The notes under the pieces were generated by a model. That model did no database searches, was not told where the DNA came from, and saw nothing but the letters and a program-made list of their open reading frames with translations. Source: Bacteroides sp. (lineage in GTDB: Bacteria; Bacteroidota; Bacteroidia; Bacteroidales; SM23-62). Taken from it: a DNA stretch of 12,924 bases. Below are positions 3,308-12,924 of the stretch, piece by piece. The stretch spans positions 1 to 12,924 of the forward strand of contig JAUVKJ010000015.1 of NCBI GenBank assembly GCA_030592145.1, written 5' to 3'. The position numbers and the translations under genes were made by a program. Numbering within the stretch: position 1 is the first letter of the stretch; the number at the start of each line of letters is the position of its first letter.

Positions 3308-4954
3308 ATGTTTAAAGGACATCCGAAAGGTCTGCTTGTCGCTTTTTTTGCCAACATGGGCGAGAGATTTAGTTTTTATATAATGATGTCCTGCCTGGTC
3401 TTTTATCTCCAGGCCAGGTACGGACTTGCAGAGGATAAAGCAGGCAATATCTATAGTACCTTCTACCTTTTGACATACGGACTTGCACTGTTAGGGGGTT
3501 TTATCGCCGACAGGACGCATAAGTACAAGGGAACCATATTCATGGGTATCCTGATCATGCTGATAGGAAAAATTTTCATATCCATTCCCAACCTCGGTTA
3601 TGCCGTTACCCTGATCGCACTTTTTATAATCGCCCTCGGGTGCGGCCTTTTCAAGGGAAACCTGCAGGCTATCGTCGGACAACTCTACGATAAACCAGAA
3701 TTCGCCCACCTGAGAGACCGGGCATTCTCCGTATTCTATATGGGGATCAACATCGGCGCTTTTTTCGCTCCCAGCGCTGCCAACGGCATCCGGAACTGGT
3801 ACCTTAAAACACAGGGTTATATATACGATGCGGACCTGGCGGGACTCAGCAATTCATACATGGCCGGCAGGCTGGAGGATACTACCCAGCTCCAGCAGCT
3901 TGCCGACCAGATGACCGGAGCGCCGGTCGCCAACCTCCCGGCATTCACCGCAGATTATATGGATGTATTCTCAACCGGATACAACTGGGCCTTCGGCCTG
4001 GCGGCCATTGCCATGACCATCAGCCTGCTGGTCTTTGTATTCTTCCACCGCATGCTGCCCGACCGTAAAAAGCAGATCCAGGAAGATAAATCCATCGCCA
4101 GGATGCCCTGGTCCGAGGAGAGGCCCAGAATCGTCGCACTCATGCTCGTATTCCTGGTTGTGATCTTTTTCTGGATGTCGTTCCACCAGAACGGGCTTAC
4201 CCTTTCGTTCTTTGCAAGGGATTACACTGCCACCCATGTGGGCGCCGCGACCAATATGTTCTTTGAATTGAAATCCATACTGGCGGTTATCGCCGCAATA
4301 TTCGGACTGGTTTACCTGATCCGCCGGAAATCCACCAGGGTTGAAAGGATCGTCGGGGGTGCACTTGTGCTTGCAGGCGGCGGATTGGCATCGTATTTCT
4401 TCGGAACCTACGGTGTGACCAACCGCATCCAGCCCGAGATCTTCCAGCAGTTCAATCCCATTTTCATCGTATTCCTGACACCTGTGGTAATCGCGGTATT
4501 CTCCTACTGGAACAGCAAGGGAGTGGAACCTTCCTCTCCCCGAAAGATCGGTATCGGGATGATCCTGGCCGCGGCCGGCTTCCTGATCATGGTGCTGGGG
4601 TCAAGGGGACTCACATCTCCTGCCAACCTGGGAGACATGCCATCACCCGACAGGATATCTCCCTACTGGCTGATCAATACCTACCTGGTGCTTACTGTTG
4701 CAGAATTATTCCTTAGTCCCATGGGAATTTCCTTTGTTTCAAAGGTAGCCCCCCCGAGATTCCAGGGACTCATGCAGGGAGGCTGGCTGGGAGCCACGGC
4801 TATCGGGAACGGCTTACTCTTCGTTGGAAGCCTCCTCTGGATACGGATCGAGCTCTGGCAGCTATGGTCGGTGTTTGTGGTTTGCTGCCTGATCTCCGCC
4901 AGCTTTATCTTCTCCATTATGAAAAGGCTGGAACGGGCCACGGGCGACGTATAG
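3308..4954 (+). CDS. POT/PTR2 family peptide MFS transporter
   Basis: Inner-membrane proton-coupled oligopeptide transporter of 548 residues with the many hydrophobic segments expected of a 12-14 helix MFS fold. Family marks in order are helix-1 motif NMGERF at 16-21, GGFIADRTHKYKG at 63-75, the PTR2 signature FYMGINIGAFFAP at 143-155, FFWMSFHQNG at 287-296 and ELFLSPMG at 466-473 followed by the conserved AP near 481. The helix-1 motif is normally ExxER. Here the first Glu is Asn (N16) while E19 and R20 remain, a form I recall in other Bacteroidetes members. Some POT members move substrates other than peptides, so di/tripeptide uptake is the family default and is not shown here. The gene is monocistronic: divergent from nnr behind its own -7 box and convergent with the DUF6048 gene 40 bases downstream. 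Confidence 0.93.
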   Translation: MFKGHPKGLLVAFFANMGERFSFYIMMSCLVFYLQARYGLAEDKAGNIYSTFYLLTYGLALLGGFIADRTHKYKGTIFMGILIMLIGKIFISIPNLGYAVTLIALFIIALGCGLFKGNLQAIVGQLYDKPEFAHLRDRAFSVFYMGINIGAFFAPSAANGIRNWYLKTQGYIYDADLAGLSNSYMAGRLEDTTQLQQLADQMTGAPVANLPAFTADYMDVFSTGYNWAFGLAAIAMTISLLVFVFFHRMLPDRKKQIQEDKSIARMPWSEERPRIVALMLVFLVVIFFWMSFHQNGLTLSFFARDYTATHVGAATNMFFELKSILAVIAAIFGLVYLIRRKSTRVERIVGGALVLAGGGLASYFFGTYGVTNRIQPEIFQQFNPIFIVFLTPVVIAVFSYWNSKGVEPSSPRKIGIGMILAAAGFLIMVLGSRGLTSPANLGDMPSPDRISPYWLINTYLVLTVAELFLSPMGISFVSKVAPPRFQGLMQGGWLGATAIGNGLLFVGSLLWIRIELWQLWSVFVVCCLISASFIFSIMKRLERATGDV

Positions 4955-6301: not shown

Positions 6302-9300
6302 ATGCAAGCCTCCCGTATCCTGTATCTGATCGCGATGATCTGTCCCTCCCTTTTGGCGCAAGCCCAGGACTATCCCATTGAAACCGTAATCCAGACCGGC
6401 CATTACGCGGCGGTGACCTCGGTCACATTCAGCCCGGACGGTCGCTTTGCCGCCACCGGAAGCTCCGACAAAACGGTCAAATTATGGGAGGTATCCACCG
6501 GCAGGGAGATTCGGTCCTACCTGGGACATACACATGATATTCGTTATCTGGCCTTCTCTCCCGGCGGCAAAATCCTGGTTTCAATCGACATGGACTACCA
6601 CCTGAAGATCTGGGAGATCCCGACCAGTAAAGAACTCCATGACATTTTCATGCCCGGCGACCGTATCCTGTCCGTGGTGTTCCACCCCGACGGCAGTTCT
6701 GTGATCGCCGGCACCCAACGCAACCATGCCATCCGCTTCAGCCTCAAAGACGGCTCCGAAATGCAAAGGTTCAGACCCGACACAGCCGATATCAATATGC
6801 AGAAGAATTTCGGATATCCCACGGCCCTCTCCGTTGACATCAGTCCCGACGGAAAGACCCTTCTGACCGGGAGCAGCGATCGCACGGCATTCCTTTTCGA
6901 TCTCCGTACGGGGAAGCAGCTCCGCAAATATAAAAGCGACAGGACCTCATGTACCAGCTGTTCCATCGATGCCCGTTTTTCCCCTTCCGGGGAAGAGATC
7001 GTCGTTGGCAACATGGACTCTGTCTATCTATGGAGTACTGCAAGCGCCCAGGTCGTCCGCACCATGCAGGGGCGCAAAAGCCACTGGGGGGCAGCGTGTT
7101 TCAGCCCGGATGGAAAATACATTGCTTCCACCCTTTTCGGCGATTGCTACATCTGGAATGCATCCACCGGGCAACAGGCCGCCGTGCTTGAAGGCCACCT
7201 GAAAGACATTACCGGTGTGCGTTTCCACCCCTCGAAAAACCTGGTCATCACCGGGAGCGAGGACCGTACGGCAAAGATCTGGAGAATCCCCTCAGGAAAG
7301 GAGATGCTCAGCCTGCATGGCTACCTTAACGATGTGGACGAAAAGATACTCAGTGACGGGTACATGTACTGGGTGGCCTTCATGAACGAGATCAAACTGA
7401 GCCCGGACGGCAAATATGTGGCCATCGGGAAAATGGGACACCTGGCCAGGCTTTACGATTTCTACACGGGAAAGCCCGTGCAGGTTTTCAGGGGACATGA
7501 AGGTATTGTTATATCGCTGGATTTCAGTACCGACGGGAAATACCTCGCCACCGGGTCTGCGGACGGGACCGCCAGGATCTGGGATGTGAAAAGCGGGAAG
7601 ATGATGGTATCCCTTCCCGAGCGTACCGCCAACATTCCTTGCTTCTCTGTGGATTTCAGTCCCGACGGAAAACTCCTGGCCACCGGGAGTTGGGACGGCT
7701 GGGTACGGATATGGGAAGTTGAGACAGGACAGCTCATACAGCGTATCCGGGCCCACAAGGATGTATCCCCCTATTCCGTGCAGTTCAGCCATAGCGGATT
7801 GTATGTGATTTCCGGGGGACTCGACCGTAAGCTGAAGATGTTCGAGATCGACACCGGCGAGGAAGTACGTGAGTTCATCGGACATACCAATGTCGTTTCC
7901 GTTGTCAGGCGCCATCCGGACAAAGACAGGATCATCACGGCAAGCTGGGACGGCAAGGCCAGACTATGGAACCTGGCCACCGGTATGCAGCTCATAAAAT
8001 TCACAGCCCACAAGGCCAGGGTGCAGGCGCTCGACATTGATGAAACAGGGAAGTATATGGTAACGGGCAGCGATGACAATACAGCCAGGTTGTGGGATAT
8101 CAATACCGGTGAAGTTATACGGACCTTTGAAGGGCACAGGGGAACGGTAAGTTCAGTCGACATTGATTCCTCCGGACAATGGCTGGTCACCGGCAGCCAT
8201 GACGGCACCCTGAAGACCTGGAATATAAAAACAGGCGAGTTGCTTTTAACCTATATATTTATGGGAGAAAACGACTGGATGGTATCGACCGCTGACGGGC
8301 ATTTTGATGCCTCCGAAGGAGCCCGCGAGTCCATCTTTTTTGTCCGGGGTACAGAAATATTCAATATCGACCAGTTCTTTGATGAGTTCTACAGGCCGGG
8401 GTTGCTACAGGAGAGAATGAAAGCGGAAGAACCTTTCGGAGCGGAACCTTCATTCAGGGGAGGGAGCATACAGGAACGCCTGAAGCAATCCCCTCCCCCT
8501 ACGGTCAGTATCCTTAGTCCCCCGAACCTCGACACTATCAGCAGTCCCATAGTCACCCTGAACGTGAACCTGATCAACCGGGGAGGCGGCATCGACGAGA
8601 TCCGTGTGCTGAACAACGGAAAACGCATCCCGTTCGACAGCGAGGAGGTGCGCAAGGTGAAAAAAGCAGGAAAATCCATTGCCATATCTATCGGGGTAAA
8701 CCTGGTCCCCGGCCGCAACACCGTGCAGGTCAGCGCGTACAGCGAAGGCAGGATAGAATCGTTTCCATCGCACGTGCAGCTGTTCTACGACGGAAAGGGA
8801 CAGGTCATCAACTGCTACCTGGTGGCCGTGGGAATCAACGAGTATGAAAATCCTGCCCTGAACCTGAATTATGCAAAGGACGATGCAAAAGCATTCAGCA
8901 GAGTCATCCGGGACCAGGGAAAGAATATATTCAAAAAAGTCGAGGTCCATACCCTCTACGACAGGGAAGCGACCCGTGAGAACATACTTATGGCTTTGGA
9001 GGAATTATCCCATAAAGTCAGACCCGAGGATGTGTTCGTATTCTATTACGCGGGACACGGAAGCATGGTCGACAATACATTTTATTTCATTCCAACGGAA
9101 AATGTAAGTCTCTACCAGGCAGACAGGCTGGCGAAGGAATCCATCAAGGCCGGAACCATGCAGGAGAAATTCAGGAACATTCCGGCCCTGAAGCAGGTAG
9201 TCGTACTGGATGCCTGCCAGAGCGGTGGGTCCGCCGAGATCCTCGCCCGGAGAGGCGCCATGGAAGAAAAAGCCATGGCGCAGCTTTCACGCAGTTCGGG

Positions 9301-9586
9301 CGTGCACGTGATGGCTGCAGCCGGGAGTGAACAGTATGCCACAGAGGCAGCAAGCCTGGGTCACGGGCTCTTTACATACGCCATCCTCGAAGCGCTCGAT
9401 GGAGGAGCCGACGGGGCTCCCAGGGACGGGAACGTAACCGTCTACGAATTAAAAGCTTACCTTAACGACCAGGTGCCCGAACTCTCCAGGGAGCACAAGG
9501 GAAGCACCCAGTGGCCCTATACCTTTTCGATCGGCCATGATTTTCCCCTTATCCGCAGAAAAGACCCCTCCGGACTCAACCAGTAG
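6302..9586 (+). CDS. Secreted WD40-repeat caspase-family (C14) protein
   Basis: A 1094-residue exported protein. Residues 1-22 form a signal peptide (cleavage near AQA|QDYP). From about 33 to 653 I count fourteen WD40 blades with SPDG, TGS-D and W/F-endings, enough for two seven-bladed propellers. A break with a longer insert lies between blades 7 and 8 (about 340-358). A hinge (656-705: DWMVSTADGHFDAS, then a YRPGLL segment) and an Ig-like stretch (about 733-828) lead to the caspase domain at 836-1085. There the catalytic pair is intact: H919 in YYAGHG (codon 9056-9058) and C972 in LDACQSGG (codon 9215-9217). The Asp two residues before the Cys is where metacaspases hold an S1 acidic residue, so cleavage after Arg/Lys is likely by analogy. 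The propellers probably bind a partner or signal. The next gene, 69 bases downstream, has an extracytoplasmic TPR domain. Domain calls are strong; substrate and role are unknown. Confidence 0.93.
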   Translation: MQASRILYLIAMICPSLLAQAQDYPIETVIQTGHYAAVTSVTFSPDGRFAATGSSDKTVKLWEVSTGREIRSYLGHTHDIRYLAFSPGGKILVSIDMDYHLKIWEIPTSKELHDIFMPGDRILSVVFHPDGSSVIAGTQRNHAIRFSLKDGSEMQRFRPDTADINMQKNFGYPTALSVDISPDGKTLLTGSSDRTAFLFDLRTGKQLRKYKSDRTSCTSCSIDARFSPSGEEIVVGNMDSVYLWSTASAQVVRTMQGRKSHWGAACFSPDGKYIASTLFGDCYIWNASTGQQAAVLEGHLKDITGVRFHPSKNLVITGSEDRTAKIWRIPSGKEMLSLHGYLNDVDEKILSDGYMYWVAFMNEIKLSPDGKYVAIGKMGHLARLYDFYTGKPVQVFRGHEGIVISLDFSTDGKYLATGSADGTARIWDVKSGKMMVSLPERTANIPCFSVDFSPDGKLLATGSWDGWVRIWEVETGQLIQRIRAHKDVSPYSVQFSHSGLYVISGGLDRKLKMFEIDTGEEVREFIGHTNVVSVVRRHPDKDRIITASWDGKARLWNLATGMQLIKFTAHKARVQALDIDETGKYMVTGSDDNTARLWDINTGEVIRTFEGHRGTVSSVDIDSSGQWLVTGSHDGTLKTWNIKTGELLLTYIFMGENDWMVSTADGHFDASEGARESIFFVRGTEIFNIDQFFDEFYRPGLLQERMKAEEPFGAEPSFRGGSIQERLKQSPPPTVSILSPPNLDTISSPIVTLNVNLINRGGGIDEIRVLNNGKRIPFDSEEVRKVKKAGKSIAISIGVNLVPGRNTVQVSAYSEGRIESFPSHVQLFYDGKGQVINCYLVAVGINEYENPALNLNYAKDDAKAFSRVIRDQGKNIFKKVEVHTLYDREATRENILMALEELSHKVRPEDVFVFYYAGHGSMVDNTFYFIPTENVSLYQADRLAKESIKAGTMQEKFRNIPALKQVVVLDACQSGGSAEILARRGAMEEKAMAQLSRSSGVHVMAAAGSEQYATEAASLGHGLFTYAILEALDGGADGAPRDGNVTVYELKAYLNDQVPELSREHKGSTQWPYTFSIGHDFPLIRRKDPSGLNQ

Positions 9587-9597
9587 CAAACAGTGTA

Positions 9598-9627
9598 TTG
9601 AAAATTCATAATAAAAAATTACATTTA
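9598..9627 (+). promoter_or_regulatory. Bacteroidetes-type promoter of the TPR-SpoIIE gene
   Basis: A TTG at 9598-9600 (-33) is followed, after exactly 19 bases, by TACATTTA at 9620-9627, which matches seven of eight positions of TAnnTTTG. The spacing is in the known range of 19-21. Transcription would begin near 9634, about 22 bases before the ATG at 9656. The phosphatase gene may thus be expressed apart from the caspase gene as well as by read-through. Confidence 0.55.
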
Positions 9628-9655
9628 TGTTCTGAATAATGGTTTCCGGTCCCAA

Positions 9656-11809
9656 ATGAAAAAACTGCTGTACATATTGATGTTCTGTATGCTGATCCCT
9701 CCGGTTCAGTCCCAGACACTCACTGACAGCATCCTGAATGTGGTCGGGACCACGGACAATGATTCCATCAGGGTTGAAGCGCTGCTGTCTCTCACCCGTA
9801 TTTTCCTTAGCCGGAACCTGCAGCAGAGTGTGGATTACGGCGAACAGGCCGTTAAACTGGCACAACAAACCGGTTCCCTTCATCATCAGAGCTGGACGCT
9901 GACCACACTTGGCGCCGCCAGGTATTACCAGGGCAATTATGACGAAGCACTGAAAAACTGGCTTGCTTCGGTTGAGATCCTCAAGGTCAGAGAATCAGAG
10001 GCCATCGATTCCGTTTCGAGGGAGGGTCTTATGGACCAGAGAGCCCTGTTGCTCAACAATATCGGTGTAGTCTACAAAACAATGGGCGAGTATGATAAGG
10101 CCATTGAATACTACCAGGAAAATCTTAGAATACAGGAGCAGATCGGGAACACCCTTCAAATGGCACAGAGTCGTTCCAATATTGCCACGGTCTATTTTTT
10201 CTTTGGCCTGGATTATGAGAAGGCCCTCGAATACTACAATGAAAGCCTGAGGCTTTTCTTTGAATACCTTGAGGAGTACCCGGATGCGGAGGATGGCAAG
10301 CGAGGTATCGCACAGACCTACCTGAACATAGGCATCGCCTATAAGGAGATGGACGATTTCGTACTCTCCCTGGAAAATTACAGCAGGGCTTTGCAACAGT
10401 ATGAGGAACTTGATGACAAAGCCGGCGTTGCGCATGTACAGAGAAATATAGGTCTGGTCCAGATGGAAGGCGGCGCTTACGAGGAAGCCCTGCAGTCAAG
10501 CATGGCGGCACTGGCAGTGTACCATGAGATCGGACAGCGAAAGGAAGAATCCGAAATCCTGAGAAACATCGGGGAGATATACTATAAGTGGAATAGATAT
10601 TCCGAAGCACTCGACTATATGAACAGGAGCCTGGATATTTCACGGCAGCTCAACCTGAAAAGGGAGATGTTTGATGTGTATAGAGACGTCTCGGATGTCT
10701 ACAGGGATATGGGTAATTACAAGCTGGCCCTGGAGAATTACGAATTGTACAACATTCTGAAGGACTCCAGCATCCATGAGGAAAACCTGAAGCAGATCTC
10801 CGAACTGGAGACAAAGTACGAGACCGAGAAGGTGGAGCGTGAGAATGTACTGCTCAATACCCAGAACGCCCTTCAGGAAGCACAGGTGAAACGCCAGCGA
10901 ATCTTCATTTTTTCCGTCATCGGAATTTCGGTGATCATCCTCGGATTCGGTTTCCTGGTATACTACCAGTACCAGGAGAAAAAGAAAGCCAATATCCTGC
11001 TCGAGGAACAGAACATCGAGATCAAGCAGCAGCGCGACCAGATCTTCCAGCAAAAGCAGGAGATCACCGACAGCATACAGTATGCAAGCCGGATACAGAA
11101 CGCCATCCTTTCTCCCGATAATATGCTTGACAAGTTGCAGGATCACTTTATTCTTTACAAGCCGAGGGACATTGTCAGCGGCGACTACTACTGGATGACC
11201 CTGAAAGACAACAAGACCATTGTGGCGGTAGCCGACTGTACGGGTCACGGGGTACCGGGGGCCTTCATGAGCATGCTGGGGATCTCTTTCATGAATGAGA
11301 TCGTAAACAAATCCGATACCACAGAGGCCAGCGAGATCCTTAACCAGCTTCGCGGCTACGTGATTTCTTCCCTGGGACAGACAGGTGAAGAAGGGGAAGC
11401 CCAGGACGGAATGGACCTCGCCCTCTGCGTCATTGACCTGAATGCCAGGAAGATCCAGTTCTCCGGTGCATACAATCCTCTATACCTCATCCGGAATGGC
11501 AAACTGATCGAATACAAACCCGATAAAATGCCAATCGGCATACACAAGGAGAAAAACGACCCTTTCAGCAACCATGATATAGATGTCGAGACTGGCGACG
11601 CACTGTACATGTTCTCCGACGGTTATGTCGACCAGTTCGGCGGAACCAGGCAAAAGAAATTTATGACCAAAAACTTCAAGGAACTGCTGCTCCGGATCAA
11701 CAAAAAATCGATGAAAGAGCAGGGTGACATTCTCGACAACACCATCATGGAATGGATGGATGATGTCGAACAGATCGATGACATCCTGGTCATGGGCCTC
11801 CGGATTTAG
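9656..11809 (+). CDS. Membrane TPR-sensor SpoIIE/PP2C serine phosphatase
   Basis: A 717-residue signalling protein. Residues 1-19 are a signal peptide (cleavage near VQS|QT). About seven TPRs span 82-370 (for example LLNNIGVVYKTMGEYDKAIEY at 132-152). A coiled-coil stretch precedes one membrane helix at about 416-437, and a second coiled coil (about 440-485) leads to the SpoIIE domain at 498-717. Metal-binding acidic residues are present: D510 in SGDYYW, D527 in ADCTGHG, D655 in FSDGYVDQFGG and the DD at 708-709. The enzyme should be active. Topology puts the TPRs outside the inner membrane and the phosphatase inside. SpoIIE-type enzymes usually dephosphorylate a STAS anti-anti-sigma factor, but no STAS or anti-sigma kinase gene lies in this window. 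The gene follows the WD40-caspase gene, with its own promoter at 9598-9627. A broken relative lies at 1-559. Confidence 0.94.
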   Translation: MKKLLYILMFCMLIPPVQSQTLTDSILNVVGTTDNDSIRVEALLSLTRIFLSRNLQQSVDYGEQAVKLAQQTGSLHHQSWTLTTLGAARYYQGNYDEALKNWLASVEILKVRESEAIDSVSREGLMDQRALLLNNIGVVYKTMGEYDKAIEYYQENLRIQEQIGNTLQMAQSRSNIATVYFFFGLDYEKALEYYNESLRLFFEYLEEYPDAEDGKRGIAQTYLNIGIAYKEMDDFVLSLENYSRALQQYEELDDKAGVAHVQRNIGLVQMEGGAYEEALQSSMAALAVYHEIGQRKEESEILRNIGEIYYKWNRYSEALDYMNRSLDISRQLNLKREMFDVYRDVSDVYRDMGNYKLALENYELYNILKDSSIHEENLKQISELETKYETEKVERENVLLNTQNALQEAQVKRQRIFIFSVIGISVIILGFGFLVYYQYQEKKKANILLEEQNIEIKQQRDQIFQQKQEITDSIQYASRIQNAILSPDNMLDKLQDHFILYKPRDIVSGDYYWMTLKDNKTIVAVADCTGHGVPGAFMSMLGISFMNEIVNKSDTTEASEILNQLRGYVISSLGQTGEEGEAQDGMDLALCVIDLNARKIQFSGAYNPLYLIRNGKLIEYKPDKMPIGIHKEKNDPFSNHDIDVETGDALYMFSDGYVDQFGGTRQKKFMTKNFKELLLRINKKSMKEQGDILDNTIMEWMDDVEQIDDILVMGLRI

Positions 11810-12041: not shown

Positions 12042-12924
12042 ATGAAAAAAATTTTCCTCCTTCTCCCGATCTTTTGCCTGGCCTTTTTTACCGGCACAGA
12101 TATGAATGCCCAGTATGCTGATTTTGGCACTGAACAAAGCGAACCCGCTTGCGCACCACACGATGTATGGTTTTTTAATTATTCAGACACGATAGAATTG
12201 ATAAGCCCTTCATGGGACTGGACCATTAACGGACAACTCTTTTATGAATGGGAACTTCCCATGCAAACCTTCGAAGCAGGTTCCTACACAATCGTTCTTA
12301 CCCTGTACGATCAGGGTGTCCCATTCGATTCCCAGCAGGAAGATATTGATGTATACGCTTCTGTAGCAAGCTTCGTGATTTCCACCGGAGGGGAAGCCTG
12401 TCCCGGGGAACAACTGAACTTCTGGTTCGATGACATGATCAGCCCGTACTCGGTGCAATGGACATTCGGCGACAACTCAATCCCGGAGGATCAGCATAAT
12501 GATAATTATCCCGACCATACCTATAATGAAGCGGGGATCTACGATGTAACTCTGATCATTGACCATAACTGCGGGCTCGATACCGTTATCCGGCAGGTAA
12601 TTATCAGTGAAACGGCCAAACCTGCGGCACATGGTTATATTACCAACGGGTCGGAGTTCTGTCCGGGCGACCCGGTCATATTTGATGTCGACGGTGAGTT
12701 TACTTCCTACCTGTGGAATTTCGGGGACGGGCACAATTCAACTGAAAGGAGACCCTCACATGTGTATCCTGCAGAGACTGGCACAACCTATGAAGCAACC
12801 GTTACGGTCACTAATTCCTGCGGACAATCCGACACCGATACCGTGGAAGTGGCATTCATGGATAATCTGGATGCCGATGCCGGTTTCGATTATTATATTG
12901 AAAGCCAGTCCATGTGGCCCTGCC
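12042..12924 (+). CDS. Secreted PKD-repeat protein (3' end outside window)
   Basis: The frame is open from the ATG at 12042 to the window edge, with 294 complete codons. The N-terminus is a signal peptide (MKK, hydrophobic core, cleavage near MNA|QY at residue 23). Two PKD-type domains are visible. The first, about 110-190, has VQWTFGDNS and HTYNEAGIYDVTLII. The second, about 195-272, has YLWNFGDGHNS and HVYPAETGTTYEATVTV. Each opens with a Cys-Pro-Gly turn (120-122 and 207-209) and has a later Cys (177 and 260) that could form a disulfide. Residues 35-105 may be a diverged PKD-like domain (SWDWTINGQ, AGSYTIVLTLYD). Such proteins are typically surface or secreted adhesins in Bacteroidetes and often end in a type IX secretion or gliding (gldB/SprB-like) C-terminal domain, which would lie beyond the edge. 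Function cannot be set from this part. Confidence 0.88.
   Translation, partial: MKKIFLLLPIFCLAFFTGTDMNAQYADFGTEQSEPACAPHDVWFFNYSDTIELISPSWDWTINGQLFYEWELPMQTFEAGSYTIVLTLYDQGVPFDSQQEDIDVYASVASFVISTGGEACPGEQLNFWFDDMISPYSVQWTFGDNSIPEDQHNDNYPDHTYNEAGIYDVTLIIDHNCGLDTVIRQVIISETAKPAAHGYITNGSEFCPGDPVIFDVDGEFTSYLWNFGDGHNSTERRPSHVYPAETGTTYEATVTVTNSCGQSDTDTVEVAFMDNLDADAGFDYYIESQSMWPC

Follow-up and report, generated by a model that had tools for sequence, protein, structure and literature searches.

A predicted exported WD40-caspase and a SiaA-type TPR phosphatase encoded side by side in Bacteroidales: neighbours whose coupling is probably optional

Anatomy of the two genes

We analysed a 12,924-bp window of Bacteroidales DNA, the entire contig C182 of a metagenome-assembled genome (G000; 2.0 Mb in 346 contigs, 73% complete), which carries two genes for predicted envelope proteins on its plus strand. 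The first (positions 6302 to 9586; open reading frame [ORF], Pfam and AlphaFold model) encodes CASP, an exported WD40-Ig-caspase protein of 1094 amino acids (aa). The second (9656 to 11809; same lines of evidence) encodes SPOIIE, a 717-aa protein composed of a signal peptide, a TPR domain, a transmembrane (TM) segment and a PP2C phosphatase domain. A first-pass annotation had described two same-strand genes 69 bases apart and read them as a candidate signalling pair. The ORFs were recovered with exactly these boundaries and a 69-bp gap, and the described parts (ORFs, Pfam domains, catalytic residues and WD40 blades) are real. Our comparison of gene neighbourhoods leads to another reading of their relationship: CASP and SPOIIE are probably two neighbouring envelope proteins, an orthocaspase-like protease and a SiaA-type sensor phosphatase, whose coupling is optional.

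Pfam recognised WD40 and Peptidase_C14 (7.4e-19) in CASP. Fourteen WD40 blades, the number counted in the first-pass annotation, span residues 26 to 662 (6377 to 8287): 11 motif matches and three blades that fit their spacing agree with 14 strand groups in the AlphaFold model (pLDDT 83.9, pTM 0.76), which were assigned by hand and of which one has just three strands of at least 3 residues. The blades would form two 7-bladed propellers, and Foldseek matched them to 2ymu and 1nr0. An Ig-like beta domain (residues 734 to 829; 8501 to 8788), seen as strands in the model and as a Big_7 match under the cut-off, is followed by the caspase domain (residues 838 to 1085; 8813 to 9556; Peptidase_C14, alignments and model). 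The catalytic pair H919 (9056 to 9058) and C972 (9215 to 9217) is intact as described and, together with D970 (9209 to 9211), invariant in 27/27 locus proteins and in 60/60 aligned homologues chosen from 120 listed. About 85 residues C-terminal to the p20 region, beyond which metacaspases but not orthocaspases have a p10 part, are conserved and partly folded in the model. The Foldseek list for whole CASP was filled by propellers; the caspase domain alone matched solved structures weakly, with metacaspase-1 as the best hit (E 0.042). The Arg-Gly pair R984-G985 (9251 to 9256), 12 residues past C972, is also invariant in the 60 homologues, and, as a speculation, may mark where CASP processes itself.

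With its dyad intact and with D970, presumably the acidic S1 residue for Arg/Lys specificity as in metacaspase structures, CASP looks like an active protease cutting after Arg or Lys. Orthocaspases are reported to cut after these residues (PMC6426788). Both CASP and SPOIIE have the N-terminal hydrophobic core expected of the signal peptides ascribed to them, the cores and the TM being called from hydropathy alone. A core without a TM occurs in 103 of the 120 listed caspase homologues. CASP is likely to reside in the periplasm, because a scan of its 434 C-terminal aa gave no Pfam match to a sorting domain of the type IX secretion system (T9SS). Annotated relatives carry the database name "caspase family protein."

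In SPOIIE, Pfam found TPR and SpoIIE. A TPR sensor domain, predicted to be periplasmic (residues 22 to 369; 9719 to 10762; Pfam, hydropathy, model and structure comparison), leads into a continuous predicted helix across the membrane (residues 378 to 484; 10787 to 11107; hydropathy and model), which includes the single TM beyond the N-terminal core (residues 411 to 439; 10886 to 10972). The SiaA-type PP2C domain follows (11066 to 11806; profile, alignment and structure comparison). The model shows a TPR superhelix, the continuous helix and the PP2C domain (pLDDT 83.2, pTM 0.51), with low confidence across the helix (about 370 to 470). If the N terminus is exported, the single TM that follows would place the TPR domain in the periplasm and the phosphatase in the cytoplasm. 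This is the topology first proposed, and 103 of the 120 listed phosphatase homologues have the same core and single TM; positive charges lie on both sides of the TM, so that charge alone leaves the orientation unsettled. In structure comparison, the TPR fold is similar both to Rap/NprR-type peptide receptors and to LGN.

The acidic metal ligands of the phosphatase are kept, as claimed before: D510, D527, C528, D587, D655, D659 and D708 are invariant in 58 sequences and align to D457, D474, C475, D534, D600, D604 and D653 of SiaA, residues reported for its metal site in PMC7647112. The domain is far closer to SiaA than to SpoIIE or RsbU, and it scores far below the cut-off of the SiaA equivalog NF038263 (190.2 versus 700 bits, residues 451 to 717 only). 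siaB and siaC are present beside phosphatase paralogues elsewhere in the genome. A gene for a SpoIIE-domain protein followed by SiaC was seen in G000:C151 (L130), G004:C235 (L135) and G006:C227 (L136); the G000:C151 copy has a YfiR/HmsC-like domain (DUF4154) and possibly belongs to a second SiaA-type module.

Downstream of SPOIIE, the start of a gene for a PKD-repeat protein (12042 to 12924, plus strand; ORF and Pfam) is ended by the contig edge; this third gene is cut off since the window is a whole contig of an incomplete genome. The orthologue in G004 has 1849 aa and a T9SS tail (Por_Secre_tail, 9e-9, Pfam). Besides CASP, the window encodes a transporter, an NAD(P)H-hydrate repair enzyme, DUFs, and TPR and PKD proteins; no RNA families or tRNAs were found in the window.

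Gene neighbourhoods and the intergenic gap

The relatives search provided seven genomes of the window's family (f1), and within this family conserved adjacency holds in four (G000, G004, G005 and G006). In G005, SPOIIE breaks off after 492 aa where the contig stops; in G006, which belongs to another genus, CASP is split across two contigs, its C-terminal part adjoining SPOIIE. The PKD gene and then an aldehyde dehydrogenase (ALDH) gene follow SPOIIE in G004 and G006. G002 has ALDH 58 bp behind CASP and lacks both SPOIIE and PKD; its best match to the phosphatase is of the 48% paralogue type. CASP, SPOIIE and PKD are all missing from a G003 contig with the order POT end-DUF6048-DUF6452-ALDH and from G001, where DUF6452 adjoins ALDH. 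By ALDH identities (set without G005) and Nnr identities (set without G003), G000, G004 and G005 stand apart from G001, G002 and G003, and G006 is the most distant. Given these groups, the simplest history would be a loss of SPOIIE and PKD first, then of CASP. The G002 CASP retains its dyad and looks maintained, its identity to the window's protein being 75% for the C-terminal and 62% for the N-terminal piece, against 72 to 74% for the two neighbours.

Three further observations concern this family. The POT transporter gene (3308 to 4954; L072, L121, L074) is about 82 to 83% identical among G000, G004 and G005 and only 45 to 48% identical to the gene at the same place in G001, G002 and G006, which suggests that it was replaced. 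Two ORFs resembling an IS200/IS605 pair lie between POT and DUF6048 in G004 (L064, 6874 to 8514). A paralogous TPR-SpoIIE gene in G001:C274 (L157) is interrupted by an in-frame TAG.

Among 393 genomes sampled from the order, f1 members included, CASP homologues (E up to 1e-100) occur in 16 and phosphatase homologues (E up to 1e-130) in 21; the sole genome with both outside f1 is G346, which has them on different contigs. CASP at the same threshold was found in 5 of 395 genomes sampled from the phylum, the window's included. We examined 28 caspase loci outside f1, with 51 slots for neighbours (ORFs of at least 90 aa); 27 loci have a neighbour in view, L176 has none, and L070, matched by its WD40 part alone, was excluded. 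A SpoIIE-domain gene directly adjoins the caspase gene in one locus (G380) and lies two genes off in one (G058). In G380, the phosphatase gene is upstream of the caspase gene across a 306-bp gap with an inverted repeat seen by eye, and the tree places the G380 phosphatase domain far from that of SPOIIE. We do not regard G380 as independent proof of pairing, a single case standing against a chance expectation of about 0.4. This estimate takes the 492 SpoIIE-domain matches of 16 non-family genomes (together about 65.5 Mb), assumes 0.9 genes per kb and counts the 45 slots left once 6 caspase-caspase slots were removed; those 16 genomes do not account for all of the 28 loci. Of 19 genomes, 18 have 9 to 72 SpoIIE-domain matches each, whatever the architecture, and one has 0.

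Phosphatase homologues also occur without an adjoining caspase outside f1; in G382, one lies beside POT-Nnr-DUF4831, the window's own flank, and the caspase is absent there. Other caspase loci showed four WD40-caspase genes in tandem (G074:C133, L081) and a Peptidase_C69 gene directly upstream of the WD40-caspase gene (G109), a position occupied by similar-looking genes in G208 and G291 (L023, L191 and L192 for the three genomes).

The gap between CASP and SPOIIE contains a promoter-like TTG-N19-TACATTTA (9598 to 9627, plus strand), whose TTG is presumably the -33 element. TTG-N19/20-TACATTTA is kept in 4/4 orthologous loci, and much of the remaining gap diverges. The motif was picked after viewing the sequence; by first-order simulation, a looser TTG-N17-22-TAnnTTT is expected in 1 to 8% of such gaps each, and it also occurs once in the SPOIIE-PKD gap of G000 and is absent from those of G004 and G006. 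The -7 box reported for sigma-A of flavobacteria is TAnnTTTG (PMC9723704), from which the element differs in its last base. SPOIIE probably has a promoter of its own. A sigma-70/terminator scan, whose sigma-70 pattern differs from the Bacteroidota one, found no terminator-like site on the plus strand of the gap, so transcription may read through. No promoter for CASP itself was found with the same TTG-type pattern.

Candidate partners and outputs

CASP and SPOIIE appear conserved as neighbours only within one family and were seemingly lost separately, which leaves a fixed partnership unsupported and the signalling-pair reading weaker than that of separable neighbours. We propose that the periplasmic TPR domain of SPOIIE would bind a protein or peptide cue, that the long helix would relay its state across the inner membrane and that the cytoplasmic PP2C domain would dephosphorylate a SiaC-family protein in a partner switch whose kinase would be a SiaB-family protein. 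The basis for this proposal is the domains, the SiaA-type catalytic centre and the siaB and siaC genes in the genome. CASP, by its domains, intact dyad and D970, would be an orthocaspase-like protease that is exported and probably cleaves after Arg or Lys, with its two propellers as a platform for binding substrates or partners.

Several observations weigh against this interpretation. The adjacency spans two genera at 63 to 64% protein identity, and such persistence suggests more than drift alone would leave. Matched contig sizes indicate that at least 9 contigs in the protein database apparently carry homologues of both genes, a rough lower bound obtained from the longest contig per cluster for the best 46 CASP and best 43 SPOIIE clusters of 120 listed each, and one that misses the G005 and G006 pairs; 3 of 15 CASP clusters with a longest contig of at least 18 kb match a SPOIIE cluster in size, and 3 of 11 conversely. 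R652 and F612 of SiaA, which contact SiaC-P in published simulations, align to I707 and K667 in SPOIIE. ORFs and Pfam revealed no SiaC or SiaB gene in the window, and a STAS protein is encoded elsewhere in the genome (G000:C206, L131), leaving the substrate unsettled.

For the phosphatase, the PKD protein is an equally good partner candidate. It is possible, if doubtful, that the TPR domain monitors the export or assembly of this T9SS-exported protein, the caspase being incidental or a processing protease. SPOIIE and PKD adjoin in G000, G004 and G006, are jointly absent from G002, and have counterparts side by side, with no caspase, in a different family (G102 and G202), where the PKD proteins are about 36% identical across about 1790 aa; the T9SS tail of the G004 orthologue is in line with this idea. 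However, close phosphatase homologues in G382, G320 and G153 have no adjoining PKD gene, related PKD proteins being encoded on other contigs, and the phosphatase tree does not firmly group the G102 and G202 proteins with SPOIIE (support 0.16 to 0.35 at the deciding nodes). This tree omitted 8 of 45 proteins with a matched piece below 150 aa (G005, G058, G346b, G042, G095, G133a, G000p5 and G000p8), represented L182 (G346) by a neighbouring paralogue and did not include the split G001 paralogue (L157).

A classical sigma-B-type output, with a STAS anti-anti-sigma factor as the substrate of SPOIIE, is unlikely. The first-pass annotation had proposed a STAS/anti-sigma partner, and SPOIIE does belong to the SpoIIE Pfam family in a genome that encodes a STAS protein. 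The kinship of its phosphatase domain to SiaA rather than to SpoIIE or RsbU makes a SiaC-family protein the likelier substrate, and SiaC genes adjoin the paralogues.

That the TPR domain reads the state or cleavage products of CASP and thereby sets phosphatase output, the core of the first-pass proposal, we consider rather improbable. Topology puts both in one compartment, four of seven family genomes keep the adjacency, G380 has a second, separate one, and the likeness to Rap/NprR receptors would suit a peptide ligand. Nevertheless, G002 keeps CASP without SPOIIE and PKD, and the flanks are joined without all three in G001 and G003. Outside the family, 26 of the 27 caspase loci that have a visible neighbour lack a direct SpoIIE neighbour, and phosphatase homologues stand without an adjoining caspase; in G380, the phosphatase domain is remote from that of SPOIIE, and the 306-bp gap has the inverted repeat noted by eye. 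SPOIIE also has its own promoter-like element. This element, the separate losses and the rarity of the arrangement in other families likewise weaken a dedicated CASP-SPOIIE operon.

A more elaborate scheme, a transmembrane peptide relay, is a long shot: cleavage after Arg or Lys by the WD40-caspase would release a peptide from a periplasmic or T9SS client, a candidate being the PKD protein encoded next door, and the binding of this peptide in the TPR superhelix would operate a cytoplasmic SiaC partner switch. If true, a bacterial caspase would have a signalling and not a killing role. A cell-death or anti-phage effector is hardly credible, given the N-terminal export signal of CASP and no nucleotide-switch or defence gene recognised in the window, despite a PADLOC caspase match (2e-15) and a hit to an EACC1-type caspase that falls short of the cut-off (91.7 versus 140 bits). 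We rejected a defence system, as the PADLOC caspase and TPR (8.4e-11) matches reflect shared domains only.

Relation to known systems

Searches of titles and abstract starts found no paper naming a pair of a caspase family protein or metacaspase with SpoIIE, and none on SpoIIE with tetratricopeptide, Bacteroidetes and periplasm; the word SpoIIE is absent from the main text of PMC3501461. Periplasmic-TPR SpoIIE-domain phosphatases have many relatives, and we found no paper that names their output. A SiaA-type centre, seen where the genomes encode several SiaC proteins, offers a concrete substrate candidate, and CASP may carry out caspase-fold proteolysis in the envelope. Our survey of gene neighbourhoods also illustrates that a two-gene adjacency can be weak evidence for a system.

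CASP resembles orthocaspases and metacaspases (C14) in its p20 His-Cys dyad and in the acidic residue two positions before the Cys. A 2012 survey reported WD40 as the most frequent additional domain (73/671; PMC3501461), and the WD40 architectures named there include metacaspase-NACHT-WD40, a pentapeptide variant thereof and a cyanobacterial WD40-TPR form; unlike these, CASP has its WD40 part at the N terminus and is predicted to be exported. SPOIIE has the PP2C fold of SiaA from the SiaABC(D) partner switch of Pseudomonas aeruginosa (PDB 6K4E) and shares with it the Cys beside the second Asp of the metal site, the DGxxDQxGG motif and the N-terminal helices. In contrast to SiaA, its sensor is a TPR domain, predicted to be periplasmic, and its gene has no adjoining siaB or siaC. 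Database homologues among the Bacteroidota TPR-SpoIIE phosphatases share the architecture of SPOIIE, which differs from them in adjoining a caspase gene.

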